From contig JAEUHH010000117.1 of the NCBI GenBank assembly GCA_016795505.1, positions 1 to 38,077 on the forward strand: a stretch of 38,077 nt of DNA. Reading direction: 5' to 3'. The notes under the pieces are model-generated. The model saw only the letters and a list, made by a program, of their open reading frames with translations, made no database searches and had not been told where the DNA came from. Numbering within the stretch: the stretch's first letter is position 1; the number at the start of each line of letters is the position of its first letter. This document shows positions 1-37,903 of this stretch, piece by piece. Source of the stretch: Verrucomicrobiales bacterium (GTDB lineage Bacteria; Verrucomicrobiota; Verrucomicrobiia; Verrucomicrobiales; DEV007). The position numbers were made by a program, and so were the translations under genes.

Positions 1-141
1 TGCTCGGTTTCTTTTCCATTTGATCCGGTGGTGTCGTCGCTACGCTCCTCAACCACCGGCTAATAGCTGTGATGCCTGCGGCATCTATTTCGCTCGAAAC
101 ACCCGTTTGGACCGAAGAGCCGTCTTAATCCCGTGGCATTC
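1..141 (+). repeat. Dispersed hairpin-rich element, left copy (inverted partner at 37902-38042)
   Basis: This 141-bp segment recurs in reverse complement at 37902-38042; by eye the only mismatch is T at 12 versus C in the partner. It contains two hairpins: CCGGTGGT at 25-32 pairs with ACCACCGG at 52-59, and GATGCC at 71-76 pairs with GGCATC at 80-85 around a 3-nt loop. An open frame runs through it but nothing suggests coding. It abuts a 22-bp repeat locus, as does its partner. It looks like a composite REP-like intergenic element. Its mobility is unknown. Confidence 0.85.
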
Positions 142-182
142 GGAGCAACCCGGTTGCATCTCCGGACAGACCCTGTTGATTC
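140..182 (-). repeat. 22-bp tandem repeat family, locus A (about two units)
   Basis: Read on the minus strand, two degenerate units of a 22-bp repeat lie side by side (161-182 and 140-160, the second one base short). They share the core AACAGGGTCTG or its variant AACCGGGTTG, followed by a TCCGA-like end. The same family occurs at 5485-5528, 19268-19311, 27473-27538 and 37838-37903. Here and at 37838-37903 it directly adjoins the 141-bp element, so the two may be parts of one composite repeat. Confidence 0.75.
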
Positions 183-191
183 GTGGCCATC

Positions 192-1361
192 ATGCCGCAA
201 GAACCCGCCGATCCCTCCTCCGCGCCCACCGGAGGCTTTGAAACCCGTGCCATCCATGCCGGTCGCGACTTTGTCAGCGACACCGGGGCGGTCACGCCGC
301 CGATCTGGCTCACTTCCACCTTTGAGTACGGCAATCCCGGTGGATTCGACTATACGCGGTCGGGAAATCCCAATTTCCGCCTGCTGGAGCGTGCCCTGGC
401 CAGCGTCGAGTCGGCCGCGCATGCCACGGTCTTCGCCAGCGGGGTCTCGGCTATCACGGCCGTGGTTTCGACGTTGAAAGCCGGCGACGTGGTGGTGGCC
501 GAGGAGAACATCTACGGCTGCACCTACCGGCTCTTCGCCCAGGTGTTCGCCAAGTTCGGCGTGTCGATCGTGTATCTCGACTTCACCGACCCGGCATCAC
601 TGGAAGAAATCGCCGGCCACCGTCCCGCGTTGGTGTGGATCGAGTCTCCGACGAATCCCAACCTCAAAGTCATCGACATCGCGGCCGTGGCTGCGGCGAC
701 CCATGCGGCCGGCAGCATGCTGGTGGTGGACAATACTTTCGCCAGTAGCTATCTTCAGCGGCCTTTGGAACACGGTGCCGATCTCTCTCTGCTGAGCACG
801 ACCAAGTATACCAATGGCCACTCGGACGCGCTCGGCGGTGCAGTCTGCACGAACGATCTCGCCTGGCGGGACCGAATGATCTTCGCCCAGAAAGCCCTGG
901 GATTGCAGCCTTCGCCGATGGACTGCTGGCTCACCCTGCGCGGGCTGAAGACCGAGGCGGTGCGGATGGAGCGGCACTGCGCGAACGCCCTGCGGTTCGC
1001 CACCTTTCTTGAGGCCGAGTCCGGGGCACGGTTTGTGCGTTACCCGTTCCTGCTGTCCCACCCGCAACATGAGATCGCCCGTCGGCAGATGGCCGGGGGC
1101 TCGGGCATTGTGACGGCCGACTTCGGGCGCAGCTTGGAAGACACTCTGCGCTTCGTGGAAAGTTTGCGCTATTTCCCGAAGGCGGAGAGCCTTGGCGGCA
1201 TCGAGTCGCTCTGCTGTCACCCGGCATCGATGACCCACGCCAGCGTGCCGCGCGAGCAGAGGGAAAAAGTCGGCATCACCGATTCGCTGGTCCGGTTCTC
1301 AGTCGGGATCGAGTGCGTCGAAGATCTCATCGAAGACGTGCGGACGGCCTTGGCTCTCTAA
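192..1361 (+). CDS. PLP-dependent transsulfuration enzyme (cystathionine gamma-synthase / beta-lyase family)
   Basis: A 389-residue Cys/Met-metabolism PLP enzyme, the usual family size. It acts on cystathionine or an activated homoserine in methionine/cysteine interconversion in the cytosol. Visible marks are the N-terminal ETRAIHAGR, the phosphate-binding region YTRSGNPN, the substrate-side ASGVSAI, and STTKYTNGHSD with the lysine expected to form the Schiff base. The frame opens at a GTG (183), but ATG 192 is preferred; neither has a clear Shine-Dalgarno. It lies 24 nt upstream of a second, more divergent family member, so the pair probably forms one operon covering both transsulfuration steps. 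Which step each performs (synthase, beta-lyase or gamma-lyase) cannot be settled from motifs. Confidence 0.88.
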   Translation: MPQEPADPSSAPTGGFETRAIHAGRDFVSDTGAVTPPIWLTSTFEYGNPGGFDYTRSGNPNFRLLERALASVESAAHATVFASGVSAITAVVSTLKAGDVVVAEENIYGCTYRLFAQVFAKFGVSIVYLDFTDPASLEEIAGHRPALVWIESPTNPNLKVIDIAAVAAATHAAGSMLVVDNTFASSYLQRPLEHGADLSLLSTTKYTNGHSDALGGAVCTNDLAWRDRMIFAQKALGLQPSPMDCWLTLRGLKTEAVRMERHCANALRFATFLEAESGARFVRYPFLLSHPQHEIARRQMAGGSGIVTADFGRSLEDTLRFVESLRYFPKAESLGGIESLCCHPASMTHASVPREQREKVGITDSLVRFSVGIECVEDLIEDVRTALAL

Positions 1362-1385
1362 AATAGAATCTTACCGGTAGCCGCC

Positions 1386-2891
1386 ATGTTCGAGCGCCAA
1401 CTCCTCACCGATCCCCTTTGCCGGCCGGAAGACCTCGGCCTCCCCATCCCGGACCTGCCACATGCGGTCTCGGTCTGCCTGCCAACCTGGGCCGACGTGA
1501 TTGGCTACGAGGAGCGCGACCCGAGGGTGATGGAAAAGCTGGTTTGCGGCTATCCCCGTTTCGTCAGACATCCGGAGGTGGTGTCGCTGTGCGAGGCGGC
1601 GGAGTCGGAATTTGCCCGCAAGGATGAACGGGCGCTGGTCTTTCCCTCTCTCGCTGCGGCTTGGAGGGCGGTGGATCATGTGAAGCGCCAGTCCGGCGCC
1701 TCCTGCCGGCTGGAAAGCTATGGCTGGGAAGGCTTGTCCGTGTTGCTGACCGGACCGGGCGGCTACGAGGCGGCATGGAAAGCGTGGCAGCACGGAGGCG
1801 AGATCGTGAGCAGTCGGCAGGCCGAGTGTGCGCTGACCGATGAGCCATTGCCCGACGATCTCGCCACGCTGGGCGACGCGGCCCGCGAGCGGGTGCGGAC
1901 GCGCATGGGGCTGCTCACGGGTGAGTCGCCTGACGATGTGTTTCTCTTTCCATCGGGCATGGCGGCCATCGCCGCGGTTCATCGGGCCGCTCTGGCGCGA
2001 AAGCCGGGCCTGCCCACCGTGCAGATAGAGTTTCCCTATGTCGATGCGCTGAAGGTGCAGCAGCACTTCGGCCCGGGGGGCGCGGTGGACCTTTCCTTGG
2101 CTCCGCAGGGGGGCGTGCGGGAAATGGCGGACTTGCTGGCGGCGGGTGGAGACTACGCGGCCGTCTTTTCCGAGGCACCGAGCAATCCGCTGCTGCGCAC
2201 CGCGGATCTTGCCGGACTGCGTGATCTGCTGGAGCCGCGCGGCATCCCGCTCATCGTCGATGACACCGTCGCCACGGCGGCAAATCTCGATGTGCTCCGC
2301 TGTGCCGACGCGGTCACCACGAGCCTGACGAAACTGTTCTCCGGGATCGGCGATGTCATGGCTGGGGCCGTCGTCCTGCGCGCCGATTCACCCCATCGCG
2401 AGGCGTTTCGCGAGAGCCTGGCTGCGGCGGAACGGGATGCGCCGCTTTTTGCGTTGGACGCGATCATTCTGGAGCGGAATTCCCGCGACTTCCCGGAGCG
2501 GGTGCCCATGATCAATGAAAGGGGCGAGGCGGTTTATGATTTCCTGCTGTCCCACCCCCGCGTGGAGCGGATCTGGTATCCCAAAGGAGAGACCCCGGAG
2601 CACTACGAGGCGCTGTTGAAGCCCGGTGGCGGCTATGGGGGGCTGATGTCCGTGCTGCTGAAGGATGCCCCGCGGACTGCGCCGGCCTTTTACGATGCGC
2701 TGCGGATCAGCAAGGGGCCGAGTCTCGGCACCAATTACTCCCTCGCGTGTCCCTACACCCTGCTCGCCCATTATGGCGAACTCGACTGGGCAGCCAAATG
2801 TGGGGTCGATGCCCATCTGGTGCGCCTCTGGGTGGGGCTGGAGCCGGAGAATGACCTCATTGGCCGCCTGGAGGCCGCGCTTGAGGCCTGA
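1386..2891 (+). CDS. Cystathionine gamma-synthase-like PLP enzyme, long divergent (fungal-like) form
   Basis: A 501-residue protein whose C-terminal two thirds match the Cys/Met PLP-enzyme fold: FPSGMAAIAA, SEAPSNPLL, IVDDTVAT, and SLTKLFSGIGD with the candidate PLP lysine. The first roughly 150 residues are not seen in ordinary 380-400 residue members and carry no motif I recognise. The length and divergent PLP site resemble the fungal STR2 type of cystathionine gamma-synthase (recognition from memory). Being 24 nt behind a conventional family member suggests one makes cystathionine and the other cleaves it (inference). The gene ends only 7 nt before the convergent yqgE stop. Confidence 0.8.
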   Translation: MFERQLLTDPLCRPEDLGLPIPDLPHAVSVCLPTWADVIGYEERDPRVMEKLVCGYPRFVRHPEVVSLCEAAESEFARKDERALVFPSLAAAWRAVDHVKRQSGASCRLESYGWEGLSVLLTGPGGYEAAWKAWQHGGEIVSSRQAECALTDEPLPDDLATLGDAARERVRTRMGLLTGESPDDVFLFPSGMAAIAAVHRAALARKPGLPTVQIEFPYVDALKVQQHFGPGGAVDLSLAPQGGVREMADLLAAGGDYAAVFSEAPSNPLLRTADLAGLRDLLEPRGIPLIVDDTVATAANLDVLRCADAVTTSLTKLFSGIGDVMAGAVVLRADSPHREAFRESLAAAERDAPLFALDAIILERNSRDFPERVPMINERGEAVYDFLLSHPRVERIWYPKGETPEHYEALLKPGGGYGGLMSVLLKDAPRTAPAFYDALRISKGPSLGTNYSLACPYTLLAHYGELDWAAKCGVDAHLVRLWVGLEPENDLIGRLEAALEA

Positions 2892-2898
2892 TCCGGGG

Positions 2899-3456
2899 TC
2901 AGTTCAGCGAGAGATCGTCCGGCTCATCGGCGATGAGGGCGTGCCATGGGCTTAGGTCGCGCAGTAGGCGATTCCACAGCGTGTCGAGCTCATCCGTCTC
3001 GAGCATGCGGGGCTCCGCCGGGCGGGTGATCCAGGCATTGCGCTCCAGCTCCGACTCGAGCTGGCCTTCGGACCAGCCCGAGTAGCCGACGAAGGCCCGC
3101 ACCGAGTAGCCTTCGTGCCGGTGCCGCAACGCTTGGGGAGCGGACAGGTGGGTGGAGTAGTGGAGGCAATTTTCCGCCGTGCTCCAGCCCAGCGAGCCGA
3201 AGGTAAGATGCTCGGTGCTCACCGGGCCGCCGATGTAGACCGGGATGTCCGCCAGATTCTCAAACTGTTCGTCGTAAAGGAGATCTCCCACCGTTTTCCC
3301 GAGCGGGCGGTTCAGAATGTAGCCCAGCGCTCCCTGATCGGCGCTGTGCTCGGTGAGCAGCAGCACGCTGTGGCGGAAAGTCGGCTCGCGGAGGTTCGGA
3401 TCGGCGAGGATGATGCTGCCTTTCAGCGAGCGGTGGGCGGACTCTTCGGGAATCAT
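2899..3456 (-). CDS. YqgE/AlgH family protein (DUF179)
   Basis: About 185 residues, normal for YqgE/AlgH. Characteristic stretches are GSIILADPNL near the start, HSVLLLTEH, GALGYILNRPLG, the GGPV turn, and FVGYSGWSEGQLE towards the middle. The biochemical function is unknown; AlgH was named in Pseudomonas as an alginate regulator. The open frame extends to 3525, but ATG 3456 gives the family-like N-terminus MIPEESAHRSLKGS and is chosen. No Shine-Dalgarno is visible. It diverges from trpD across a 148-nt AT-richer spacer and is convergent with the transsulfuration pair. Confidence 0.9.
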   Translation of the reverse strand: MIPEESAHRSLKGSIILADPNLREPTFRHSVLLLTEHSADQGALGYILNRPLGKTVGDLLYDEQFENLADIPVYIGGPVSTEHLTFGSLGWSTAENCLHYSTHLSAPQALRHRHEGYSVRAFVGYSGWSEGQLESELERNAWITRPAEPRMLETDELDTLWNRLLRDLSPWHALIADEPDDLSLN

Positions 3457-3496
3457 GGAGCGTCGGGGAGGCGAACCTGGAAAAATGTTCGATTTA

Positions 3497-3525
3497 AATC
3501 TAGAAGTGCAAGCGCCCTGCCGCAA
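3497..3525 (-). promoter_or_regulatory. Candidate sigma-70-like promoter for yqgE
   Basis: On the minus strand TTGCGG (3520-3525) and TAGATT (3497-3502) are separated by exactly 17 nt, 41 nt upstream of the yqgE start. The match is partial (3/6 and 4/6), but the spacing and the locally AT-rich sequence in a GC-rich genome favour it. Confidence 0.3.
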
Positions 3526-3604
3526 TGTTTCTCAGTTGTGGCCATTCACCGGCCTTTTGCCACCGGGTCAAGTGCCGGCGGCGGCGCATCATCCCTTTTT
3601 TGTC

Positions 3605-4654: not shown

Positions 4655-4715
4655 GCCGGAGAGATCACGCAAGAAATCGATTGTCAGGGGCGCGATCGTC
4701 TGAAAAGGAAAGCGC

Positions 4716-5474: not shown

Positions 5475-5484
5475 GCCGGCCGAT

Positions 5485-5528
5485 TCCGATCGAACCCTGT
5501 TTCATCTCCGATCCAACCCTGTTTCATC
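5485..5528 (-). repeat. 22-bp tandem repeat family, locus B (two units)
   Basis: Two perfect-length units (5507-5528 and 5485-5506 on the minus strand) differ at a single base (GGTTG versus GGTTC before GATCGGA). Each begins GATGAAACAGGGTT. They sit between the SDR stop and the RidA start, within what otherwise looks like a same-strand operon. Confidence 0.85.
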
Positions 5529-5545
5529 GAAAATCCGCGATCCCC

Positions 5546-6010
5546 ATGAGTGCTGAATCCCGAATCCTGGAACTGAATCTCGACCTGCCGGCGCCGCCGC
5601 CTCCAGGCGGGGTGTATCAGCCGGTCATCATCACCGGCAATCTGGCTTACATCTCCGGTCATGGGCCGCTGAAGAGCGATGGCACCTACATCGTCGGCCG
5701 GGTGGGGCAGGATCTCGATCTCGCGGCGGGAAAGGCGGCCGCCCGGCAGACCGGCCTGGCTTTGCTGTCCACGATCCGGGCCGGTTTGGGCTCGCTGGAC
5801 CGGGTGAAGCGGGTGGTGAAGACGCTGGGGCTGGTGAACTCGGCTCCGACTTTCTGCGAGCAGCCAGCGGTGATCAATGGCTACAGCGAGTTGTTCCGCG
5901 ATGTCTTCGGCGAGGATGCCGGGGTGGGGGCGCGCAGTGCGATCGGCACCAATGTGCTGCCGGGAAACATACCGGTGGAGATCGAGGTCATCCTGGAGAT
6001 CCATCCCTGA
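5546..6010 (+). CDS. RidA family protein (YjgF/YER057c/UK114), atypical longer form
   Basis: A 154-residue member of the Rid superfamily, longer than canonical RidA (about 130). Canonical RidA hydrolyses reactive enamine/imine intermediates of PLP enzymes. The conserved arginine region is present near the end (GARSAIGTNVLPGNIPVEIEV), with YISGHGPL in the N-terminal half. It belongs to the 'endoribonuclease L-PSP-like' subgroup, whose substrates are poorly defined. Start ATG 5546 is the first after the repeat; there is no clear Shine-Dalgarno. The flavin reductase starts 10 nt downstream, so co-expression is likely. A link to the SDR substrate is inference. Confidence 0.88.
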   Translation: MSAESRILELNLDLPAPPPPGGVYQPVIITGNLAYISGHGPLKSDGTYIVGRVGQDLDLAAGKAAARQTGLALLSTIRAGLGSLDRVKRVVKTLGLVNSAPTFCEQPAVINGYSELFRDVFGEDAGVGARSAIGTNVLPGNIPVEIEVILEIHP

Positions 6011-6019
6011 GCCGCGAAG

Positions 6020-6631: not shown

Positions 6632-6637
6632 GCCGAC

Positions 6638-8764: not shown

Positions 8765-8783
8765 CAGGTGGGCGGGTCGCGTC

Positions 8784-8831: not shown

Positions 8832-8859
8832 GGTTGATGGGTTCAGGATTGGGTAGGGA

Positions 8860-11529: not shown

Positions 11530-11571
11530 GACACTATCGTGGCCGAGGAAGTCCCGCCCGGCAAGAGCGCA

Positions 11572-12306
11572 TCATCGGGAGAAGAGCAGCCCGTAGCCGA
11601 CCCAGAAGATCCCGAAATCGACGATCATGTGACCAAACCACGGCCCCAGCAGGGTGCGGTGCCGTTGGTATTGCCAACTCCAGAAGGCTCCGCCGATCCC
11701 GACGGACACGCTGAGAAACAGGGCCAGGCCGAAGGGGAAAAACTGGCTGGTCACCACGAGATGGTGGGCGGCAAATCCCGTGGCGGCGATGACGTGGGCG
11801 GTCCGCTCCCGCAGGAGATGGCGCAGGTTGCCGAACACGAACCAGCGCCAGTACCATTCCTCCAGTGCGGCATGGGCGATCGAGATCGCGAGGGCGGCCA
11901 GGATGTAGTGGTTCAGCATCCCCATGTCCGCGACTCGCTGCCGCACCTGGCCGGCGGATTGCTCCATCAGGGTGCCCATGAAGGTGAACTCCTTGAGCAG
12001 GAGCATGAGGGCCACCACGGCCAGACCGAACAGCGTGCCCTCCAGCAGCGAGTGCCGCCTCGCGATCACACCCGGCGGCTCCCGACGCAGGGGCTCGCGC
12101 AGGATGAACAGGGTGGCGATGGCCGGCCAGAGCAGTTCGAAGACCTTGACCGACGAGTAGGCGGCATGGCCGATGGCGGTCCCGGGAAAAACCACGAAAT
12201 AGAGAAACGAGGCCGACAGAGGCAGCAGCAGCGCGGGCAGCACCACCGCCCAGCGACGGGTGGCGTGCGGGTGTGGGTCGGTTCGGTGGAGAAGTGGCTC
12301 GGTCAT
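11572..12306 (-). CDS. CPBP family intramembrane metalloprotease (CAAX/Abi)
   Basis: A 244-residue polytopic membrane protein with the three CPBP motifs in order: EEWYWR (EExxxR), FAAHHLV (FxxxH) and HMIVD (HxxxD). These supply the metal and general-base residues of the glutamic-type intramembrane protease fold. About six to seven hydrophobic segments are visible. Members are implicated in prenyl-protein processing, bacteriocin self-immunity and regulated proteolysis; the role here is unknown. The frame extends to 12345, but ATG 12306 gives a more usual N-terminus. It lies about 90 nt downstream of the NERD-helicase on the same strand, so linkage is possible but not shown. Confidence 0.9.
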   Translation of the reverse strand: MTEPLLHRTDPHPHATRRWAVVLPALLLPLSASFLYFVVFPGTAIGHAAYSSVKVFELLWPAIATLFILREPLRREPPGVIARRHSLLEGTLFGLAVVALMLLLKEFTFMGTLMEQSAGQVRQRVADMGMLNHYILAALAISIAHAALEEWYWRWFVFGNLRHLLRERTAHVIAATGFAAHHLVVTSQFFPFGLALFLSVSVGIGGAFWSWQYQRHRTLLGPWFGHMIVDFGIFWVGYGLLFSR

Positions 12307-17663: not shown

Positions 17664-19220
17664 GTGGCTCACTCTGATTCACCGACCCTGCCCTCTTCAA
17701 GCCCCGACCTGGCCACAGCCATCGCCGCCCTCGAGGCCGTCGTGCGCGACCGCGCCCTGCTCAATGCCCTGAGCCCCGAGGACCGACAGCGCCTTCTCAC
17801 CGCCGCCGGCGACGTCTTCTGCCCCGACGTGTCCCAGCGTCGCCGACAGGTCAAAGCCCGCCAGCGCGAGCGCAAAGCCAGCCAGATCGACCGCACCGAG
17901 GAAGTCCTCCACCAGACCGGCATCCGCGAGTTGCGTCGCCGGCCCGTTTTCACCACCCCGAATGTCTACCCACCCGCCCTCGGCGAACCCGTCGAGGTGG
18001 ACGACCCCGCCTTCCGCGAGGTCGTCGAGCCGCAGAATTGCTACATCTGCAAAAGCGACTACCAACTCATCCACCATTTTTACGACCAGCTCTGTCCCGC
18101 CTGTGCCGAGCTGAACTTCCGCAAGCGCACCGAGACCGCCGACCTGCGCGGTCGCGTCGCCCTGCTCACCGGCGGGCGGGTGAAGATCGGCTACCAGGCT
18201 GGCATCAAGCTGCTCCGCGCCGGCGCCGAGTTGATCGTCACCACCCGGTTTCCCCGCGATGCCGCCCTGCGCTACTCCCAGGAGCCCGATTTCACCGTCT
18301 GGGGCCACCGGCTCAAGATCTTCGGCCTCGACCTGCGCCACACCCCCAGCGTCGAGGCTTTTTGCCACCATCTGCTGGAGACCCGCGAGCGGCTCGACTT
18401 CATCATCAGCAACGCCTGCCAGACCGTCCGGCGCCCCCCCGATTTCTACCTCCACATGATGGACCGCGAGAGTGCCGACCTCCGCGAGTTGCCCGGCGAT
18501 AGCGCCAGCCTGCTCGGCGAATACGAAGGCCTGCGCGGCTACCACATGCTGCCCGAGGGCCGGGATCAGACGGCCGATGCGCTCGCCGAGCCCGCCGCCG
18601 CCTCCCTGGCCGGCCTCACCCATGCCGCCGCGCTCTCCCAGGCGCCCCTGCTGCCCGACGAGCAGACTGCCCGCAGCCACCTGTTCCCCCAGGGGCAGCT
18701 CGATCAGGACCTCCAGCAGATCGACCTGCGCGAGCGCAATTCCTGGCGCCTCCTTCTGGCCGAGGTGCCCACCGTCGAGTTGCTCGAGACCCAGCTCGTC
18801 AATGCCGTCGCCCCCTTCGTGCTCAATGCCCGCCTCAAGCAGCTCATGATGCGCAGCCCCGAGCGCGACAAGCACATCGTCAACGTCTCCGCCGTCGAGG
18901 GCCAGTTCTACCGCAAATTCAAGACCACCCGCCATCCCCATACCAACATGGCCAAGGCCGCGCTGAACATGATGACCCGCACCAGTGCCGCCGACTACCA
19001 CGCCGACGGCATCCACATGAACGCTGTCGATACCGGCTGGGTCACCGACGAGGACCCCGTCCACATCGCCGAGCGCAAAGTGGACGAGCACCGTTTCCAC
19101 CCGCCCCTCGACATCGTCGACGGCGCCGCCCGCATCGTCGATCCCATCATCGACGGCTTCAATACCGGCGAGCACATCTGGGGCAAATTCCTCAAGGACT
19201 ACCGCCCGACGGATTGGTGA
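17664..19220 (+). CDS. Large SDR-fold oxidoreductase with Cys4 motif and altered active site
   Basis: About 518 residues from GTG 17664 (the frame is open to 17475, but the first 63 residues look non-coding). An N-terminal helical, Arg/Gln-rich segment is followed by a Cys4 motif: C126-x2-C129-x14-C144-x2-C147, probably a zinc knuckle. A Rossmann/SDR domain starts near residue 160. The glycine motif reads TGGRVKIG, with Lys where classical SDRs have the middle Gly. NVSAVEG gives the usual Ser, but the helix Lys (TNMAKAAL) has Thr four residues before it instead of Tyr; an alternative YxxxK (YRKFK) lies just upstream. A roughly 100-residue insertion (residues 260-370) separates the two halves. 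Cofactor use and activity are uncertain. Confidence 0.82.
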
Positions 19221-19267
19221 GAATGGATGCAAAGGCAGATCGCTGATCGGGAAGGGGAGTCATTTCC

Positions 19268-19311
19268 GATGCAACAGGGTCTGATCGCCGATGCAACAGG
19301 GTCTGATCGGA
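19268..19311 (+). repeat. 22-bp tandem repeat family, locus C (two units)
   Basis: Two units (19268-19289, 19290-19311) agree in 20 of 22 positions, each beginning GATGCAACAGGGTCTGATCG. The sequence just before them (19245-19267) looks like a decayed third unit. They lie in the gap between the Cys4 SDR and the P-loop NTPase genes. This is the least degenerate pair in which the core AACAGGGTCTGATCG is fully conserved. Confidence 0.88.
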
Positions 19312-25898: not shown

Positions 25899-27422
25899 TC
25901 AGCGACTGCGGCCGGCCGCCTGAATGGCCTTGAGCCTGGTGGCCATGGCACGGGCGCGGTCGGGCTCGCGGGAGATCAGGTCGGTGGTCTCCCCGGGGTC
26001 GGTGGCGAGGTCGTAGAGCGATCCCGCAGGCGCGCCGCCGAGTTCCGTGCCGGTATTGGCATTCTTCTGCGGCCCCTTGGTCGGCTCGATGTATTTCCAC
26101 GAGCCCTCGCGCAGGGAGAGGCTGCGGGCGTGCTCGACGAGGTGATCGCGACCGGTTTCCGACTCTCCCAGCAGGGCGGGTAGGAGATTGAAGCTGTCCG
26201 GCGCGTCTTTTTCGGCCAGATTTTGGCCCGTCAGCGCGGCAAAAGTGGCCGGCAGGTCCACCTGGCACACGAGGGCCTCCGAGACGCGGCCGGCCGGGAT
26301 GCGCTTGGGCCAGCGGGCGAGGAAGGGCACCCGGGTGCCGCCCTCGAAGTTCGAGTATTTGCCGCCACGCCACGGGCCGGCGGGCCGGTGGTCGCCCAGT
26401 TTGGCCACGGCTTCATCGTGATAGCCGTCGTCGATGACCGGGCCGTTGTCGCTGCTGAACAGGACCAGCGTGTCGTCGGCCAGACCGAGCCGGTCCAGCG
26501 TGGCGAGCACCTGCTCGACGCACCAGTCCATCTGCACGATCGCATCGCCGCGGGGACCCATCGCCGTCTTGCCGACGAAGCGCGGATGCGGCACGCGGGG
26601 CACGTGGATGTCGTGGAAGGAGAAAAACAGGAAGAAGGGCTGATCCCGGGGCGCCTTTTCGATGAAAGCCACCGCCTTTTCCGTGATCCGGTCGGCCATG
26701 TCCTCGTCGGTCCACCGGGCCGCCTGTCCTCCGGTCATGTAGCCGATGCGGCTGATCCCATTCACGATGGTCATGTCGTGCCCGTGGCTCGGGTGCATCT
26801 TGAGCAGGTTGGGGCGCTCGCGGCCGGTCGGGTCGTCGCCGACTTTCTCGCCAAAACGCACCTGAATGGGGTCGGCAGGGTCCAGGCCGACGACGCGGTG
26901 GTTCTCCACATACACGCAGGGCACCCGGTCGCCGGTCGCGGGGATGAGAAAGCTGTAGTCGAAGCCGATCTCCAGCGGTCCGGGCTTGATGTCGCCGTTC
27001 CAGTCCGGACCGCCATCGGGGCCGAGACCGAGGTGCCATTTGCCGACCACGCCGGTGCGGTAGCCGGCTTGTTTCAGGATCGAAGGCAGGGTGGTGCGAC
27101 CCGGCTGGATGATGGCGGCCGCGTCACCCTTCGCGATGCCGGTGCCCTTTTCCCGCCAAGCGTATTCGCCGGTGAGCATGGCGTAGCGCGACGGTGTGCA
27201 GGTCGCCGAGGGCGCATGACCGTCGGTAAAGCGGATGCCCTCCTGCGCAAGGCGGTCGAGAGCCGGCGTCCGGACGGCGGTGGCTCCCTGGCAGCCCAGG
27301 TCGCCCCAACCGACATCGTCGGCATAGAGCAGCACGATGTTCGGCCGCTCGGCGGCGGACAATAGATTGGCTAGACCGAGGCTGGCGGCCAGCAAGAGGA
27401 ATCGGGCGTGGTGGGAAATCAT
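25899..27422 (-). CDS. Secreted type I sulfatase (formylglycine-dependent)
   Basis: A 507-residue arylsulfatase-family enzyme that removes sulfate esters, probably from polysaccharides. It has an N-terminal signal peptide (HHARFLLLAASLGLANLLSAA), RPNIVLLYADDVGWGDLGC with the calcium-binding Asp pair, and SATCTPSRYAMLTGE carrying the Cys-x-Pro-x-Arg site. That Cys must be converted to formylglycine, so a maturase is needed; none is in the window. GYRTGVVGKWHLG and FLFFSFHDIHVPRVP follow as expected. It leads an operon with the GDSL/DUF1080 protein and the amidohydrolase. The start is ATG 27422, not the frame start at 27461. Confidence 0.96.
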   Translation of the reverse strand: MISHHARFLLLAASLGLANLLSAAERPNIVLLYADDVGWGDLGCQGATAVRTPALDRLAQEGIRFTDGHAPSATCTPSRYAMLTGEYAWREKGTGIAKGDAAAIIQPGRTTLPSILKQAGYRTGVVGKWHLGLGPDGGPDWNGDIKPGPLEIGFDYSFLIPATGDRVPCVYVENHRVVGLDPADPIQVRFGEKVGDDPTGRERPNLLKMHPSHGHDMTIVNGISRIGYMTGGQAARWTDEDMADRITEKAVAFIEKAPRDQPFFLFFSFHDIHVPRVPHPRFVGKTAMGPRGDAIVQMDWCVEQVLATLDRLGLADDTLVLFSSDNGPVIDDGYHDEAVAKLGDHRPAGPWRGGKYSNFEGGTRVPFLARWPKRIPAGRVSEALVCQVDLPATFAALTGQNLAEKDAPDSFNLLPALLGESETGRDHLVEHARSLSLREGSWKYIEPTKGPQKNANTGTELGGAPAGSLYDLATDPGETTDLISREPDRARAMATRLKAIQAAGRSR

Positions 27423-27472
27423 GACGATCGCGATGGTAGGAGGAACGCCCGCGGCTGGCAATGCGAATGACC

Positions 27473-27538
27473 GGAGAGACCGGGTCTGATCTCCGATGAG
27501 ACAGGGTCAGATCGGAGAGGCAACCCTGTCTGATCGGG
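27473..27538 (+). repeat. 22-bp tandem repeat family, locus D (three units, one partly inverted)
   Basis: Units at 27473-27494, 27495-27516 and 27517-27538 keep the 22-nt period exactly. In the last one the central bases read ACCCTGTC, the complement-like form of the AGGGTCT core, so part of the unit is inverted. Locus D overlaps the end of the HAD gene: its TGA stop (27507-27509) and last residues lie in the repeat. Confidence 0.82.
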
Positions 27539-28238
27539 AGAGCCGGTCGATGGTGGCGAGGAAAGCGACGGGATCGGTGAAGTCCTCGAACAGGTGGTCG
27601 GGATCGTGCTGCGCCAGGTCTGCGGCGGTGTAGGCCCCGGTGGCGACGGCGATGGCCCAGGCGCCGCAGGCGCGGGCGCAGCGGATGTCTTTGGGGGTGT
27701 CGCCGATGATGAAGGTGCGCTCCGGCGGAAAGTCGCGTCCGGAATGTTGCCGGGCCCGGCCGATGGCGACGGGGCCGAGTTCGTTGCGATCGTGGTGGTC
27801 GTCCCCGAAGGCGCCGAAGGCAAAAATGCCGCCCAAGCCAAAGGTCTCGACCTTGGTCCAGGCGCCCGGGGCGATGTTGCCGGTCAGCAGGCCGAGCAGG
27901 TGGCGTCCGGCATCGGCGCGCAGGTGGTCGAGCAGTTCGGTCACGCCGGGCAGCAGACGACCGTCCTGTCGGCCGCGACCACTCAGCTCGATCTCGAGGT
28001 GGGTGTGGTAGCGGGCGTAGAACCGGTCCTCCAGCTCGGGATGGTGGCCGATCGCGAAATGATCGCAAAGCGACCGGACGATGCCCGAGTCGGTGCTGCC
28101 GGCGAGATTCAGCGGGGGGAAGCTCTCCGCCTGCTCGTGCAGGCGGAATTCCTCAATCCAAGCCGATCGCAGGGCCCGCAGGCCGGCGCCGCCGGTGTCG
28201 AGCAGGGTGCCGTCGATGTCGAAGAGCAGCAGATTCAT
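27507..28238 (-). CDS. HAD family phosphatase (phosphoglycolate phosphatase-like)
   Basis: A 243-residue haloacid-dehalogenase hydrolase. Motif I FDIDGTLLDTGG is at the N-terminus (nucleophile Asp), motif II LLTGN is in the middle, and motif IV FIIGDTPKDIRCA is near residue 190. A helical cap sits between I and II. The substrate is probably a small phosphorylated metabolite, but undefined. The last ten or so residues (LSRSDRVASPI) come from a 22-bp repeat, so the ancestral C-terminus may have been replaced. Start ATG 28238 is used; a GTG at 28259 overlaps the infC stop as GTGA after a GAGGAGGAG tract and is a real alternative. It is probably in the thrS-infC unit. Confidence 0.9.
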   Translation of the reverse strand: MNLLLFDIDGTLLDTGGAGLRALRSAWIEEFRLHEQAESFPPLNLAGSTDSGIVRSLCDHFAIGHHPELEDRFYARYHTHLEIELSGRGRQDGRLLPGVTELLDHLRADAGRHLLGLLTGNIAPGAWTKVETFGLGGIFAFGAFGDDHHDRNELGPVAIGRARQHSGRDFPPERTFIIGDTPKDIRCARACGAWAIAVATGAYTAADLAQHDPDHLFEDFTDPVAFLATIDRLSRSDRVASPI

Positions 28239-28255
28239 GAGACCGTCGGGGCGGC

Positions 28256-28942
28256 TCACTCCTCCTCCTCGCCGCGGTGGGCGTGGTCGTCGTCGTCGTG
28301 GTGATGATCGTCGGGTACTTCGGCAGCGTGGGCGGCGTCGTCGTCGGCCTCGGCTTTCTCGTGGGCTTCCCAGTCGACTTCCTCGTCCTCCTTGCGGAAG
28401 CGGGGCTTCTGCTTCGCCTTGGGTAGCGGGGAGAGCATCATGAGGATGCTGCGATTGTTCAGCTTCGGCTCGAGGTCGATGTGGGCCATGCCGAGCAGGT
28501 CGTTGCGGACTTTGCTCATCAGGTCGAAGCCCAGCTCCTTGTAGGCATTTTCGCGGCCGCGGAACTGGAGGATCATGCGGAGCTTGTGCCCGTGGGCGAG
28601 GAAATCCTCGGCGCGGGTGAGCTTGATCTGGTAGTCATGGGGATCGATCCGCACGCGGAACTTGATCTCCTTTTCCTTGATCTTGGGCTTCTGATCCTTT
28701 TTCTGCTTGGACTGCTCGTAGCGCCATTTGCCGTAGTCAACGATGCGGCAGACGGGCGGACGGGCATTGGGCGCGACTTCGACGAGGTCGAGGCCGAGCT
28801 CCTTGGCTTTGGCGAGGGCGCGGACGGTTTTCATCACGGCGTTGGCTTCGCCGTAGATGACGCGCACCTCGGGGACCCGGATGCGTTCGTTTACGCGGAT
28901 GACTTCCCGTCGGGGACGGGGTTTGAATGGTTTACTGGCGAT
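28256..28942 (-). CDS. infC: Translation initiation factor IF-3, probable AUC start, acidic/His C-terminal tail
   Basis: IF-3 governs start-codon choice and subunit dissociation. The conserved core is clear: VNERIRVPEVRVI, LGLDLVEVAPNARPPVCRIVDYGKWRYE, KEIKFRVRIDPHDYQIK, then RGRE, and a C-domain ending around LSPLPKA. No ATG, GTG or TTG lies between the upstream in-frame TAA and this conserved part. The only GTG (28867) falls inside it. ATC at 28942 gives MASKPFKPRPRREVIRVNE and is preferred; ATC at 28900 or 28882 are alternatives. After the core, about 45 residues are Asp/Glu/His-rich (DDHHHDDDDHAHRGEEEE), unusual for the family. infC follows thrS by 170 nt, as often, but rpmI and rplT do not follow. 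Confidence 0.92.
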   Translation of the reverse strand: MASKPFKPRPRREVIRVNERIRVPEVRVIYGEANAVMKTVRALAKAKELGLDLVEVAPNARPPVCRIVDYGKWRYEQSKQKKDQKPKIKEKEIKFRVRIDPHDYQIKLTRAEDFLAHGHKLRMILQFRGRENAYKELGFDLMSKVRNDLLGMAHIDLEPKLNNRSILMMLSPLPKAKQKPRFRKEDEEVDWEAHEKAEADDDAAHAAEVPDDHHHDDDDHAHRGEEEE

Positions 28943-30996: not shown

Positions 30997-31169
30997 GGGG
31001 GCGAAAAGAAATGAGAGGGGGCGGGGAAAGGGTAGAGAAAACGGGCAAAAGATACGCGGGAGCGGCGGAAACCCAACCTCTTTCCTGCGGACGGCCCGGG
31101 GAACGGGTGTTTTTTGAAGCTTGAAAGCCGCAGTGGTATCGCGCACTCTAGCCACGCTCGGGTGAGCCC

Positions 31170-31246
31170 CGGGGCGTAGCACAGCTTGGTAGTGCGCCTG
31201 GTTTGGGACCAGGAGGTCGCAGGTTCGAATCCTGTCGCCCCGACCA
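31170..31246 (+). tRNA. tRNA-Pro (anticodon TGG)
   Basis: A 77-nt gene with an encoded CCA (31244-31246). The acceptor CGGGGCG (31170-31176) pairs with CGCCCCG (31236-31242); A is the discriminator. The anticodon arm is CCTGG-TTTGGGA-CCAGG with TGG at 34-36. The T-arm GCAGG-TTCGAAT-CCTGT is intact. It lies between the thrS 5' side (divergent) and the membrane protein gene. Confidence 0.97.
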
Positions 31247-31279
31247 CTTTCCTTCCGATCCTTCCGACTCTCCCTGACG

Positions 31280-32245: not shown

Positions 32246-32282
32246 GCCCGGGCGCTCCCGCAAAACCGGGAAGCGAAATGGT

Positions 32283-32311
32283 TTGAGCCCGGCGGCGAAG
32301 GTTGCTAGCCT
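32283..32311 (+). promoter_or_regulatory. Candidate sigma-70-like promoter of acs
   Basis: TTGAGC (32283-32288) and TAGCCT (32306-32311) are separated by 17 nt, in the gap between the membrane protein gene and acs. The predicted leader to ATG 32390 is about 70 nt. The -10 is weak (TAnnnT), so this is a tentative call. Confidence 0.35.
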
Positions 32312-32389
32312 TGCCGCCCCTGACCTCCGGGTCTCCCCCTGTTTTCTTCCCTATTTGGTCAAAATCCCGACGACATCACCCATCTCCCC

Positions 32390-34354
<1,965 letters not shown>

Positions 34355-34367
34355 GCCCGTGAGGGGG

Positions 34368-34437
34368 AGTGAGGAGTGAAGAGTGAAGAGTGAAAAGTAA
34401 AAAGTGAAGAGAAAAAAGTGAAGAGTGAAGAGTGAAG
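34368..34437 (+). repeat. Heptanucleotide tandem array, forward orientation (10 units)
   Basis: Ten consecutive 7-mers of consensus AGTGAAG, with variants AGTGAGG, AGTGAAA, AGTAAAA and AGAAAAA, begin 13 nt after the acs stop. A complementary array lies at 34532-34587 with a 94-nt core (34438-34531) between, so the arrays form a long imperfect inverted repeat. The arrays are AT-rich against a GC-rich background. Function unknown. Confidence 0.85.
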
Positions 34438-34531
34438 CGTTCCGATTTCAGTCTCCCCTGCCAGCCGTGAGGAACTGTCATGTGCCAAGGGCGTCGCATT
34501 CCCAGTGCAGCCTCTGAGAACTGACCACTTA

Positions 34532-34587
34532 TTACTCCTCACTTTTTACTTTTTACTTTCTACTCTTCACTCCTCACTTCCCACTCA
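34532..34587 (-). repeat. Heptanucleotide tandem array, reverse orientation (8 units)
   Basis: Eight 7-mers of the complementary form (TTACTTT, TCACTTT, CTACTCT, TCACTCC and variants) end 7 nt before the threonine dehydratase-like gene. They can pair with 34368-34437. An open frame reads through them into that gene (start 34505), but the encoded low-complexity residues are not part of a real protein. Confidence 0.85.
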
Positions 34588-34594
34588 CCCGCCC

Positions 34595-35572
34595 GTGCCC
34601 ACCTTCTCCGCCATCGAAGCCGCGGCGGCCCTGATCTACCGGACCCTCGCGCCCACCCCGCAGATCGCCTGGCCGCTGCTCGCGCAGCGCTGTGGCTGCG
34701 ACGTGTGGGTGAAACAGGAGAACCACCTGCCCACCGGCGCCTTCAAAGTGCGCGGCGGCCTCGTCTACCTCGACTGGCTGCGCCGCACCCAGCCCGACGT
34801 GCCGGGCGTGATCGCCGCCACCCGGGGGAATCACGGGCAGAGCATCGCCTGCGCCGCCCGCGCCCAGGGACTGCCCGCCACCCTCGTCGTCCCCCACGGC
34901 AACAGCCCCGAGAAAAACCGCGCCATGCGTGCCTACGGAGCCACCCTGGTCGAGCACGGGCGCGACTTCGCCGAAGCCCTCGCCCACGCCCGCACCCTCG
35001 CCGCAGAGCAGGGCCTGCACTTCGTGCCCTCCTTCGATGACCGGCTCGTGCTCGGCGTCGCCACCTATGCCCTGGAGCTGTTCCGCGCCGTGCCCCATCT
35101 CGACCGCGTCTATGTCCCCATCGGGCTCGGCTCCGGCATCTGCGGCACCCTCGCCGCCCGCGATGCCCTGGGTCTGGAGACAGAGATCGTCGGCGTCGTC
35201 GCCGCCGAGGCGCCCGCCTACGCCCTGTCCCTCGCCGCCGGGCATCCCGTATCCACCGAGGCCATACCCGACACCCTCGCCGACGGCGTCGCCTGTCGCG
35301 TGCCCGATCCCGACGCCTTCGCCCGCATCCGGGCCGGCGTCAGCCGCATCGTCCGCGTCACCGAGCCCGAGATCCGCGCCGCCATGCGGCATTACTTCAC
35401 CGATACTCACCAGGTCGCCGAAGGCGCCGCCGCCCTGCCCCTCGCCGCCGCCCTCCAGGCCGGGGAGCGCGAGCGCCCCTCGTCGTCCGACGCCCCCCGC
35501 CGCATCGCCCTCATCCACAGCGGCGGCAATGTCGATGCCGACCGCTTCGCAGCCGTGTTGGGCGGCGAATGA
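34595..35572 (+). CDS. Threonine/serine dehydratase-like PLP enzyme
   Basis: A 325-residue fold-type II PLP enzyme like threonine/serine dehydratases. The Schiff-base Lys is in HLPTGAFKVRGG, ATRGNHGQSIA is the substrate-carboxylate loop, and VPIGLGSGICGTLAA holds the glycine-rich phosphate cup. No regulatory ACT domain follows, so it is the short catabolic-like form. Substrate choice (Thr, Ser, or a modified amino acid) is not decided. GTG 34595 is preferred to the frame start at 34505, which lies in the heptad repeats. It is on the same strand as acs, but the repeat arrays separate them. Confidence 0.9.
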   Translation: MPTFSAIEAAAALIYRTLAPTPQIAWPLLAQRCGCDVWVKQENHLPTGAFKVRGGLVYLDWLRRTQPDVPGVIAATRGNHGQSIACAARAQGLPATLVVPHGNSPEKNRAMRAYGATLVEHGRDFAEALAHARTLAAEQGLHFVPSFDDRLVLGVATYALELFRAVPHLDRVYVPIGLGSGICGTLAARDALGLETEIVGVVAAEAPAYALSLAAGHPVSTEAIPDTLADGVACRVPDPDAFARIRAGVSRIVRVTEPEIRAAMRHYFTDTHQVAEGAAALPLAAALQAGERERPSSSDAPRRIALIHSGGNVDADRFAAVLGGE

Positions 35573-35625
35573 GATGCCGCAGAGACCGGAGGACCGGGGC
35601 GCGTCATTCCGATGCGACCGAGCCT

Positions 35626-35653
35626 GATACGGAGCGCGGGCACTCCTGCCCGC
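35626..35653 (+). repeat. Dispersed palindromic repeat, copy 1 (core GCGGGCACTCCTGCCCGC)
   Basis: A 28-nt copy beginning GATACGGA and ending with the 18-nt palindrome, whose GCGGGCA arm pairs with TGCCCGC across a 4-nt loop. The same 28 bases recur at 35710-35737 without mismatch, 56 nt further on. Confidence 0.8.
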
Positions 35654-35709
35654 AATCGAACGAATCAGAACCAAACGAGCATGACCGCCCGAGTTCGCGC
35701 CCGCCGTCA

Positions 35710-35737
35710 GATACGGAGCGCGGGCACTCCTGCCCGC
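35710..35737 (+). repeat. Dispersed palindromic repeat, copy 2 (core GCGGGCACTCCTGCCCGC)
   Basis: Identical over 28 nt with 35626-35653, in the same orientation. Such 18-nt stem-loops are familiar to me as high-copy intergenic repeats in PVC-group genomes. A stem-loop in both the DNA and the transcript is possible. Confidence 0.8.
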
Positions 35738-35878
35738 TGCCAGGCGCCTTTTCCCCCTCGTTGGGGGCCGTATGCCGAAATCCCGCGCCGGATCACCCGG
35801 TGCCAGCGTTCCGCAGCCGGGCCGCCGCTCTGACCGTTGGCACCGGGCCGAGGCCGCAGCGCCGTCGGCCTGAAAACC

Positions 35879-36301
35879 CTACCGCCGCAGCGCCGCCAGC
35901 AGCTCGTCGATCTTGTTGGCGATCGACTGCACCTCGAAAGCCGTGGGCGGGTCATTGACACTCAGGGCCAAGTCCGCCACCGACGACGGGTGCCGCGCCG
36001 TCGCGCCGATCTCCGACTGGAGTTGCGCCATCGACACCTCGCCGGGCGTGCCGGGCGTCCCGTCGAGACCATCGGCCCCGTGGGGGATCTGAAAGGAAAA
36101 ATGGAGCACGCCGGCCGACAGCGAGACCGACACCTGCGCCGGATCGCCCGGCGGCACGGTCTGCACACTGTCCACCACCGCGCTGGTCACCTCGCCCCCG
36201 GCGAGGGCGTCGATCAGCGATTTCAGCCCCTGGAGCTGGGTGCGCATTTCCGCCGCGACCAGGGGCGAGCCGTCGGCAGGGAGAGAGGGATCGTAGGCCA
36301 T
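35879..36301 (-). CDS. Small protein with collagen-like G-x-y segment
   Basis: A 140-residue protein. MAYDPSLPADGSPLVAAEMRTQLQGLKSLIDAL forms an N-terminal helical part. The middle has VSVSLSAGVLHFSFQIPHG, then GADGLDGTPGTPGEVS, a short G-x-y run, then a helical C-terminus ending DELLAALRR. The layout (helix, beta segment, collagen-like turn, helix) resembles small tail-fibre or surface-like proteins, but I recognise no family. It follows the fibronectin III gene by 124 nt on the same strand. No signal peptide. Real gene likely; function unknown. Confidence 0.7.
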   Translation of the reverse strand: MAYDPSLPADGSPLVAAEMRTQLQGLKSLIDALAGGEVTSAVVDSVQTVPPGDPAQVSVSLSAGVLHFSFQIPHGADGLDGTPGTPGEVSMAQLQSEIGATARHPSSVADLALSVNDPPTAFEVQSIANKIDELLAALRR

Positions 36302-36425
36302 ATCAGTTCGGATGGGGCTACCCGGAGCGGTTGGCCGGCGGCCCGGAGCAGGAGGAACCGTTCTGCCCGTTGGACCGCCGGCCCCGCTTCCAGGGGGGAA
36401 GGCGTTTGGTGGTAAGGATCCCGTC

Positions 36426-37151
36426 TCAGGGGATGCGTTTCATGGCCGGATCGCTCCACGGCCCATTGCCATTCGGACCGACGGCGCGGACGCGGAAAAA
36501 GCAGACCGCCCCGCTGGGCAGGCCGGCAAAGGTGATCTTGCTCTTCGTCGCGATGCCGAGGTGCGACCAGCTCGTCGGCGTGACCGGGTCGGGGCTGCTC
36601 TGGACCTCGTAGCTTTTCGCGCCGCGAACGGCGTCCCACGACAGATCGATCTCGCTCGCATCGTCGCCTTCCGTGGCGCCGAGGTTGGTCACCTGACCCA
36701 TGGTCGTCGGGGCGCCCTCGCTGCGCAGATCAAATCCGCCGCTGAGCAGCTTGGTGGCGTCGCCTCCACTCACCGACTGGGCGTGGTCGGCCAGAGCGTT
36801 GAGGGCGGAGTGGTATTCCTCCTCCGCCACGGTAGCCTGTTCCGTGGCCTCCTTGGCGGCTTGCTTGGCGGCCTCCTGGGCCAGGAGTTTGGCTTTCAGA
36901 GCCGCCGTCTTGGTCACCAGAATGGCGACCAGCGGGCCGGCATCGGGGAAGGCGGAGTTGCCCGTCATCTTCGGGGCGATGGTTTCCCCCTGTACGACCT
37001 TTTCCAGGCGGCTCAGGGATTCGAGACTCAGTTTGATCAGTGCCATAGGTGTCTTTTTCGGTTGTGGGGCGGTGGCCTGTCCATCCCAGGTCTGACCGGA
37101 GTCCCACGTCACGCCGCTATCCCAGTTCAGAGGTGGATCGGGAGCGGGCAT
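36426..37151 (-). CDS. Fibronectin type III domain protein with W-D-S-G repeats
   Basis: A 241-residue protein starting at ATG 37151 (the frame is open to 37226). The first 25 residues hold LNWDSGVTWDSGQTWDG, a tandem W-D-(S/G) motif. A helical segment about residues 35-140 (KAKLLAQEAAKQAAKEATEQA) is Ala/Lys/Glu-rich and coiled-coil-like. Residues 155-241 form a fibronectin III domain (TNLGATEGDDASEIDLSWDA, SYEVQSSPD, FFRVRAVGPNGNGPWS). I know similar proteins from Verrucomicrobia, usually of unknown function. ATG 37046 (MALIKLSLESL) is an alternative start that would remove the W-D-S-G part. Probably paired with the collagen-like protein downstream. Confidence 0.85.
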   Translation of the reverse strand: MPAPDPPLNWDSGVTWDSGQTWDGQATAPQPKKTPMALIKLSLESLSRLEKVVQGETIAPKMTGNSAFPDAGPLVAILVTKTAALKAKLLAQEAAKQAAKEATEQATVAEEEYHSALNALADHAQSVSGGDATKLLSGGFDLRSEGAPTTMGQVTNLGATEGDDASEIDLSWDAVRGAKSYEVQSSPDPVTPTSWSHLGIATKSKITFAGLPSGAVCFFRVRAVGPNGNGPWSDPAMKRIP

Positions 37152-37506
37152 GGCGGTGGCGGGGCTGAGGCACGGGGCCGGAGAGGGCGGGAGACGTCCC
37201 GGTTTGTTTTTTGGTTTCGCTTGCACAGGAATAGCCGCGGGCGGGAAGGCCGCCGGGCTTTCGATTCAGGTAAAACGACGCGGCGACTCACACCTGGCTG
37301 TTCTGGCGACCGTTTTATGAAATTAGCCACCGGGCTGGCAATCTTTTTTTTCGCGGACTGGGATTTTTTTTCTTTGTCGGGTGCAGACCCGCTGCCGAAC
37401 GGGCTGGACGAGTCGCGGCACCCCACAGAGAAGCGTGCCAGCCCTTTCGGGAGGGTGCCCGGCAAGATCCGTCCCGCCGCGAGATGTCGCCCATTTTGTG
37501 ACTCCG
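37152..37506. other. Intergenic region, probable promoter of the fibronectin III gene
   Basis: No gene is supported here. On the minus strand TTGCCA (complement of 37336-37341) and CATAAA (complement of 37314-37319) lie 16 nt apart and could form a weak promoter for the fibronectin III gene, with a long leader of about 160 nt. T-runs occur at 37343-37352 and 37365-37373. Confidence 0.4.
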
Positions 37507-37737
37507 GAAGGCGTTTCCGTGGCTACGGAAGGCGTTTCCGTGGCCCCGGAAAGAGTTTCCGTAGCCCCGGAAGGAGCTTCCGTAGCCCCGGAAAGAGTTT
37601 CCGTAGCCCCGGAAAGAGTTTCCGTAGCCCCGGAAAGAGCTTCCGTAGCCCCGGAAGGAGTTTCCGTAGCCCCGGAAAGAGTTTCCGTAGCCCCGGAAGG
37701 AGCTTCCGTAGCCCCGGAAATCATTTCCGGAGTCCCT
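37507..37737 (+). repeat. 21-bp tandem repeat array (10 units plus a degenerate one)
   Basis: Ten head-to-tail 21-nt units (37507-37716) and a decayed eleventh. Each contains the near-palindrome CGGAAAGAGTTTCCG (or the AGGAGCTTCCG variant), joined by TAGCCC or TGGCCC. The differences between units are mostly A/G and T/C at the two arm positions next to the 3-nt loop, so the arms stay largely complementary. The period is a multiple of three, so several frames stay open (SVAPER- and SGATETL-type heptapeptides), but no start or neighbouring domain supports coding. Confidence 0.92.
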
Positions 37738-37837
37738 CTTTCAGGCTGGGTTCAGCCTTTAGGGGTTTGATTGTGAGGCATTTATGCCGAAATCGCCCCT
37801 GTAGCCAAGTCCCGGAGCCAGTGGAGGCAGGCGGTCC

Positions 37838-37903
37838 GATGAGACCCGGTTGCCTCTCCGATCCAAGAGGGTCTGATCGGAGAGGAAAGAGGGTCTGAGC
37901 GGA
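37838..37903 (+). repeat. 22-bp tandem repeat family, locus E (three units)
   Basis: Units at 37838-37859, 37860-37881 and 37882-37903. The last two carry GAGGGTCTGATCGGA and GAGGGTCTGAGCGGA; the first has ACCCGG in place of the AGGG core. The array runs without a gap into the right copy of the 141-bp element, the mirror image of locus A. Confidence 0.85.

Follow-up and report, generated by a model that had tools for sequence, protein, structure and literature searches.

The 38,077-bp contig JAEUHH010000117.1 of a Verrucomicrobiales bacterium, analysed here over its full length as the window and representing the whole of contig C97 in a draft genome of 6.55 Mb and 120 contigs (assembly GCA_016795505.1, hereafter G000), carries five copies of a dispersed DNA element made up of abutting 22-bp units with a palindromic skeleton. 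These elements are tentatively interpreted as cooperative binding sites of a putative protein, most likely marking or partitioning the core chromosome. They have a strict architecture, are present at about 650 sites in G000 (extrapolated from 84 in 838 kb), are restricted, among the genomes searched, to part of one family, and avoid stable folding. Furthermore, they are regularly spaced in two genera, occupy positions shared across species and show lineage dialects in their arms around a nearly constant core. A reading protein, its cooperative binding and a role in chromosome organisation are what we infer from this combination.

The family extends well beyond the five loci and 12 units noticed in a preliminary description of the window, all of which are present. 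The exact 15-mer core, CAGGGTCTGATCGGA, is found 121 times in the 6.55 Mb of G000 (57 and 64 copies on the two strands) and the palindromic unit CCGAT-N3-AC-N3-GT-N3-ATCGG in 315 exact copies, the reversed controls giving none, so that the family is not the coincidence that a lack of further loci would have meant. The detailed counts in G000 rest on 838,077 bases including the window, i.e. 13% of the genome, where 85 units with at most one of the 14 fixed bases wrong were counted, compared with none in the reversed sequence and none in one random copy generated with a dinucleotide model. A weight matrix applied to the same DNA detected 101 loci with 211 units (60 two-unit, 22 three-unit, two four-unit and 17 one-unit loci); the 84 strong loci (192 units) were used for context and spacing, the other 17 of the 101 lying below a threshold of our own choice and being left out. 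The period of 22 nt proposed earlier is nearly invariable, holding for 108 of 110 pairs of successive units, and both unit orientations do occur. The units abut without spacers, as had also been noted, and with this 22-bp period and the many separate loci a CRISPR array was rejected, no search for cas genes having been made.

The usual element consists of two or three units with the core in either orientation, and its repeating frame, GAT-N3-AC-AGG-GT-N3-ATC-N3-GAT and so on, makes the dyads alternate every 11 bp. The unit centre reads AGG in 146 and CGG in 22 of 170 units, in either orientation, the triplet between units is GGA, TCC, GCC or GGC in 90 of 94 cases, and TTTCC is the commonest outer end (32 of 75 left and 28 of 75 right ends); the N3 arms differ from unit to unit. 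Dimers of G000 take all unit orders (36, 19, 29 and 22). A genome of another genus (G013, 51% GC), scanned with a matrix built from its own units, contained 87 strong loci in 514 kb and none in the reversed sequence, 12 of its 99 loci falling below the strong threshold and not entering the analysis of spacing and context. Its neighbouring units are 22 bp apart in 98 of 121 cases and 32 bp apart in 20 more, the latter owing to a linker between two dimers, and its dimers have the order + then - in 65 cases, - then + in one, and equal orientation in 16 and 16. The four-unit loci of G013 (e.g. in L292-L311) are mostly two dimers with a similar linker, about GAAAAGCCNTTTCG.

The arms do not pair above expectation, either within a unit or across a dimer. 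Arm identity, tested with orientation fixed, is below expectation (23 of 2000 shuffles as low in G000 and 85 of 2000 in G013), an effect smaller than, and of the same sign as, that obtained with core orientations mixed. The fixed skeleton by itself is still palindromic. In a folding comparison, the 55 two-unit elements of G000 have a mean minimum free energy as RNA of -19.33, compared with -20.6 (sd 0.42) with the arms re-dealt (one of 200 as weak), and the 58 of G013 have -16.14, compared with -17.08 (sd 0.34; none of 200 as weak). Stable folding is avoided, and the elements are not hairpins, repetitive extragenic palindromic (REP) sequences or terminators; with its arms unpaired and its folding weaker than that of re-dealt sets, the palindrome looks like a feature of double-stranded DNA. 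The fixed phase of two helical turns, the dyads at every turn, the strict core and the avoidance of folding together suggest that a protein binds the duplex cooperatively. Among the roles proposed in the preliminary description, a protein-binding array fits best, whereas a transcript processing site is disfavoured by the avoidance of stable folding and because no firm rule could be established for orientation with respect to genes; where the flanking genes are co-directional, 49 units point against them and 27 along with them, units within a locus not being independent.

Among the 84 strong loci of G000, 64 lie between predicted genes, 18 inside a gene and two at an edge, on DNA of which 86-90% is covered by genes predicted with a simple home-made gene caller. 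The intergenic loci comprise 20 in convergent, 32 in co-directional and 12 in divergent gaps, so that convergent gaps are enriched (20 of 64, compared with 46 of all 423 gaps of at least 40 bp). The spacing is far more regular than that of randomly placed loci. The 78 intervals of G000 have a mean of 9114 bp and a coefficient of variation (CV) of 0.44, one being shorter than 3 kb and two shorter than 4 kb, whereas 2000 simulations with uniform placement gave a CV of 0.94 (least 0.67) with 27.3 intervals below 4 kb (least 14), and 2000 with placement in intergenic gaps gave a CV of 0.91 (least 0.64) with 26.7 such intervals (least 15). The 79 intervals of G013, with a mean of 5733 bp, have a CV of 0.58 compared with 0.96 under the null (0 of 2000 as low), and 23 of them are below 4 kb, compared with 39.9. 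Intervals longer than twice the mean number one in G000 and four in G013, where 10.6 and 10.7 were expected, and in G013 the unit count grows with the distance to the neighbouring element (rho 0.28, p 0.019). A separate observation concerns positions 1-40000 of contig C55 of G000 (L084-L085), which have two weak matches, no strong element and a GC content of 0.588, compared with about 0.65. This stretch carries large genes and, among the 7 of 16 predicted genes scanned, a ResIII restriction subunit, an N6/N4 methylase and a SAVED-HNH protein; with these defence-type genes it looks like an acquired defence island, as a single case.

Comparison with relatives indicates that many of the element positions are shared across species and genera and are probably old. 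Ten conserved genes flanking elements of G000 were sought in five relatives, with 40 regions read. An element stands upstream of trpS at 20, 20, 27 and 20 bp in G001, G002, G013 and G025 (17 bp in G000), upstream of pdhB at 51, 54 and 44 bp in G001-G003 (56 bp in G000), and after metK at 10 bp in G001 and 18 bp in G013 (9 bp in G000). By the strict test, which in G001-G003 misses weak elements, none was found after rpsA (0 of 4 relatives), after moaA (0 of 4) or within 600 bp after gmk (0 of 5). A looser test with the G013 matrix, applied to all orthologous gene ends within reach, showed an element in the relative at 37 of the 72 ends that bear one in G000, compared with 24 of the 283 that do not; the Fisher p of 6e-15 is too small since one element may count at two ends, the contrast still being large. 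For the individual relatives the proportions are 11 of 16 versus 2 of 64 (G001), 4 of 14 versus 0 of 46 (G002), 7 of 16 versus 4 of 53 (G003), 11 of 19 versus 12 of 94 (G013) and 4 of 7 versus 6 of 26 (G025, p 0.16 when taken alone).

The spelling of the elements follows the lineage. Read on the core strand, GA is followed by T in 154 of 192 units of G000, whereas in G013 it is followed by A in 130 and by T in 72 of the 208 units, and the letter before the closing TC is A in 155 of 192 units of G000 versus T in 180 of 208 of G013. For units with exact ACAGGGT, the 3' arm has C in 22 of 24 in G001-G003 and A in 18 of 19 in G025. The core letters A and GGGT are kept in at least 188 of 192 units of G000 and at least 190 of 208 of G013; the C of AC is replaced by T in 95 of 208 units of G013, and 26 of the 192 units of G000 have C as the first letter of AGG.

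Copies at separate loci do not appear to be recent duplicates. The closest pair in G000 has 43 of 45 bases alike, and column-shuffled sets reach 44. Mean nearest similarity is slightly above that of shuffled sets in all five orientation classes, with none of 300 shuffles reaching it in three of them, an excess that could come from dependence between columns or from old duplication. The flanks of two-unit loci, 8-44 bp outside, agree at best in 22 of 36 positions compared with 21 at 600 bp away in G000, and in 20 compared with 19 in G013. Likeness of the flanks had been considered on the basis of first best pairs of 30 of 36 (G013) and 25 of 36 (G000), above letter-shuffled values, and was rejected; the excess was gone after the restriction to two-unit loci and to 8-44 bp outside, and so came from nearer bases, from longer loci or from both. 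Adjacent units share 40 of 190 arms versus 22.7 expected (0 of 2000 shuffles as high). The proposal of local duplication after dispersal is thus half supported, adjacent units sharing arms above the re-dealt expectation, whereas the dispersal itself appears to be old.

A two-unit skeleton with one ACAGGGT matches 36 of 386 genomes of the order, the window's own included, 35 of these being among the 74 genomes of its family and the remaining one a single hit elsewhere in the order (G042); the order-wide reversed control produced a single hit, in G195. Match counts, which are not loci and include both strands, reach hundreds in G000, G001, G003, G025, G079 and G071, and many other matching genomes have low counts, some one hit only. 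With a slightly narrower pattern the window's own genome alone matched among 387 genomes across the phylum, a sample holding no other member of the family. As the patterns demand ACAGGGT, relatives with a different core would be missed. A family confined to one genome, suggested by finding the exact 15-mer in 4 of 57 genomes (own included), was a dialect artefact that the skeleton pattern removed. Four perfect units in a row are present only in G000, G071 and G079 of the 74 genomes, and gave no lead to an autoregulated gene. In G067 all three exact matches to the G000 dialect are on contig C14, with misbinning or transfer as possible causes. Six pattern scans of viral contigs, three of them without a match, yielded one full two-unit element (L339, 4678-4718) on the tailed-phage contig IMGVR_UViG_3300035698_019880, inside an open reading frame of 225 amino acids next to the tape-measure gene; 10 other viral-contig loci are partial matches. 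By a rough estimate from the size of the collection one chance match is plausible, yet the outer GA and TC fit too.

The five elements of the window, with refined limits and position weight matrix scores of their units in order, are as follows.

140-184, minus strand: element 1, two 22-bp units (140-162, 162-184), scores 13.7 and 16.5.
5486-5530, minus strand: element 2, two units (5486-5508, 5508-5530), scores 30.9 and 33.4.
19266-19310, plus strand: element 3, two identical 22-bp units (19266-19288, 19288-19310), scores 33.6 and 34.8.
27471-27537, no single strand: element 4, three units in the order + + - (27471-27493, 27493-27515, 27515-27537), scores 17.9, 30.9 and 24.4.
37836-37902, no single strand: element 5, three units in the order - + + (37836-37858, 37858-37880, 37880-37902), scores 22.7, 31.9 and 19.4.

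The inversion of the core within a locus reported earlier is seen at units 27515-27537 and 37836-37858, which are opposite to their neighbours. Element 1, the poorest-scoring of the five loci, sits between a contig-end repeat and the gene at 183, and element 5 adjoins the repeat at the other end. The contig ends, 1-140 and 37903-38042, are the same 140-bp sequence, inverted and 99% identical, flanking these two elements; as nothing else in the 838 kb matches it, this is likely to be a repeat that interrupted the assembly. Element 2 takes up most of a 71-bp gap from the end of an SDR gene (5474) to the gene at 5546. Element 4 is flanked by 25899-27422(-) and 27507-28259(-) and extends into the predicted 3' end of the second. 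Element 3 is located 45 bp 3' of the stop of an SDR-like gene (17664-19220), and in the relative L102 an element at 11557-11597 occupies the equivalent place just 3' of the same gene. The best relatives of the protein (17664-19217) are mostly from Verrucomicrobiota draft genomes, the top one being HKST-UBA29 with 79% identity, and the gene is mostly absent from tested family members, with one strong match (G001) in 18 genomes; given this rarity, gene and element 3 may have moved together. A minisatellite at 37504-37720, with about 10 copies of the 21-bp unit CCGGAAAGAGTTTCCGTAGCC, is apparently unrelated to the 22-bp family, and two runs of 7-bp units (GAGTGAA and ACTTTTT-like, at 34367-34437 and 34526-34578) lie in the gap bounded by the gene that ends at 34354 and the one at 34595.

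On the interpretation favoured here, the element would be a composite double-stranded site for one sequence-specific putative protein, which would bind cooperatively along one face of the helix, with units 22 bp apart and dyads every 11 bp. The sites would mark or partition the core chromosome as borders of segments, as anchors or as barriers between segments. From the even distances and the mostly old positions it would seem that a site is worth having about once per segment of 6-9 kb, and the segments would have about the size of bacterial supercoil domains, diffusible supercoils being said to move in 10-kb domains (PMC3420936). It is also possible, if short of probable, that the elements constitute an undescribed chromosome-marking system, namely a grid of regularly spaced, old-positioned and lineage-spelled composite sites for a putative protein, acting as a domain grid or a mark of self-identity. 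The known repeat kinds tested do not account for them, no title among the literature matches listed describes the element, and the 12-base core string occurs in no paper searched. Over-regular spacing, shared old positions and dialects together are not usual for ordinary bacterial repeats.

Several observations weigh against binding sites that organise the chromosome. About half of the positions are unshared (35 of 72), the spacing is looser in G013, where 12 of 79 intervals are below 3 kb (32 expected), and sparse genomes exist, e.g. G078 with seven elements by the strict test in 316 kb. The distance to the nearest neighbour has no significant tie to element quality (Spearman 0.13 and 0.14), a relation that a simple model of decaying spare sites would predict. 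Part of the constancy of the core is a product of the search, whose patterns and seeds required it, and some of the dialect differences may be due to base composition (65% versus 51% GC). The analysis, which included no comparison of whole proteomes, found no binding protein. Finally, re-spelling hundreds of fixed sites would be easier via the molecular drive of DNA uptake than via slow co-evolution with a binding protein.

DNA uptake is the chief rival to the chromosome-marking interpretation, although in our judgement an unlikely one. A surface or pilus receptor would take up element-bearing DNA as a self-recognition sequence, and recombination would spread and re-spell the elements by molecular drive, from which dialects, a constant core and even spacing would all follow. 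Dialects with a constant core are found here as they are described for Neisseriaceae uptake sequences (PMC3630211), and the distribution in G000 and G013 is more even than random, a relatively even distribution being given as the expected outcome of molecular drive (PMC7811141). The probably acquired, low-GC 40-kb stretch of contig C55 without a strong element (two weak matches) may also agree with uptake, as one case. The ComEC family (PF03772) is found in 10 of 10 element-bearing genomes tested; however, it is also found in 6 of 8 element-free relatives, and therefore does not discriminate. The density of one element per 6-9 kb differs from the value of about one per 1 kb given for the uptake sequences of H. 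influenzae, and the phased array of 45-67 bp is not a single short word, two uptake sequences within 100 bp being described as bringing no detectable gain in that species (PMC7811141). The elements are, in addition, mostly intergenic. Spacing fits both explanations; the dialects speak for uptake, and a chromosomal binding protein is favoured by arrays in phase, by the low density and by a location between genes. If the elements are uptake signs, self-DNA recognition would occur outside Neisseriaceae and Pasteurellaceae, to our knowledge the two families noted for it, in a phylum with little genetics. If they organise the chromosome, they would provide a readable map of segment borders, which are usually inferred only from contact maps. 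Under either explanation, a short duplex bait could directly identify the reading protein.

The remaining alternatives are less credible still. A relic family of mobile elements, whose insertion avoided existing copies and which is now fixed and decaying, is improbable. In its favour are the partial duplication of adjacent units, the scarcity of loci close together and, in three of five classes, a mean likeness of copies slightly above that of column-shuffled sets (0 of 300); against it, the flanks of two-unit loci resemble one another no better than DNA 600 bp off, the closest copies are within the column-shuffled range, and the skeleton is strict after genus-level divergence with a spelling that tracks lineage. 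The selfish repeat considered in the preliminary description is likewise disfavoured, since many positions are common to other species and another genus and the flanks of two-unit loci are unlike, although the slight excess of likeness among copies counts in the other direction.

Repeats resembling REP sequences and bacterial interspersed mosaic elements (BIME), made or once spread by Y1 transposases of the REP-associated tyrosine transposase (RAYT) type, were rejected as very improbable, as stem, end tag and transposase link all fail. The elements are short, palindromic, mostly intergenic and present in hundreds of copies with clusters in both orientations, and G000 has 17 Y1 transposase matches (to PF01797). 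However, the arms do not pair above expectation, stable folding is avoided, and many positions are common to different genera. GTAG is found at 2 of 168 ends in G000 and 8 of 174 in G013, compared with 5.1% and 3.9% of random 16-mers, and CGTC at 18 of 168 and 15 of 174, compared with 15.8% and 11.3%. Across 15 genomes, PF01797 matches number 17, 6, 10, 1, 1, 12 and 3 in element-bearing and 36, 7, 2, 8, 4, 14, 10 and 0 in element-free ones, the element-rich G013 and G025 having one each and the element-free G006 36.

Bidirectional intrinsic terminators or mRNA-end hairpins, which enrichment between convergent genes and frequent placement near stop codons would suit, are hardly credible given folding weaker than with the arms re-dealt, elements 17-27 bp upstream of trpS in five genomes, and a TTTT run within 10 nt that follows none of 168 ends in G000 and 17 of 174 in G013 (counts without a composition control). 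Transposases of the Mu and Tn7 types have 22-bp end sites near which they avoid inserting, so an evenly spread set of sites bound by such a transposase, retained as immunity beacons, would protect the chromosome as a whole. The 22-bp unit agrees with this explanation, as does the scarcity of short intervals, the rest of it being conjecture; it is nonetheless highly improbable, as shared old positions would need long-lasting selection.

Among known systems, the end sites of Mu and Tn7 resemble the elements as 22-bp binding sites in arrays with proximity effects on insertion, whereas the present elements lie across the core chromosome with no attached transposon known (no search was made). REP and BIME sequences share with them the form of short palindromic intergenic repeats, clustered and in both orientations, and differ from them in that the elements have unpaired arms, no GTAG or CGTC enrichment, no link to Y1 counts, regular spacing and positions common to genera. 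The DNA uptake sequences (DUS) of Neisseriaceae and uptake signal sequences (USS) of Pasteurellaceae are similar in their many copies, constant core, lineage dialects, relatively even distribution and occurrence in both orientations, whereas here strictly phased arrays of 22-bp units, 45-67 bp long, occur once per 6-9 kb, mostly between genes and in another phylum. The chromosome-organising sites parS, matS, the SlmA sites and KOPS are, like the elements, dispersed sequence-specific sites for a DNA-binding protein (here putative), whereas the elements described here are distinguished by hundreds of sites with two or three phased units each, by regular spacing and by lineage dialects.

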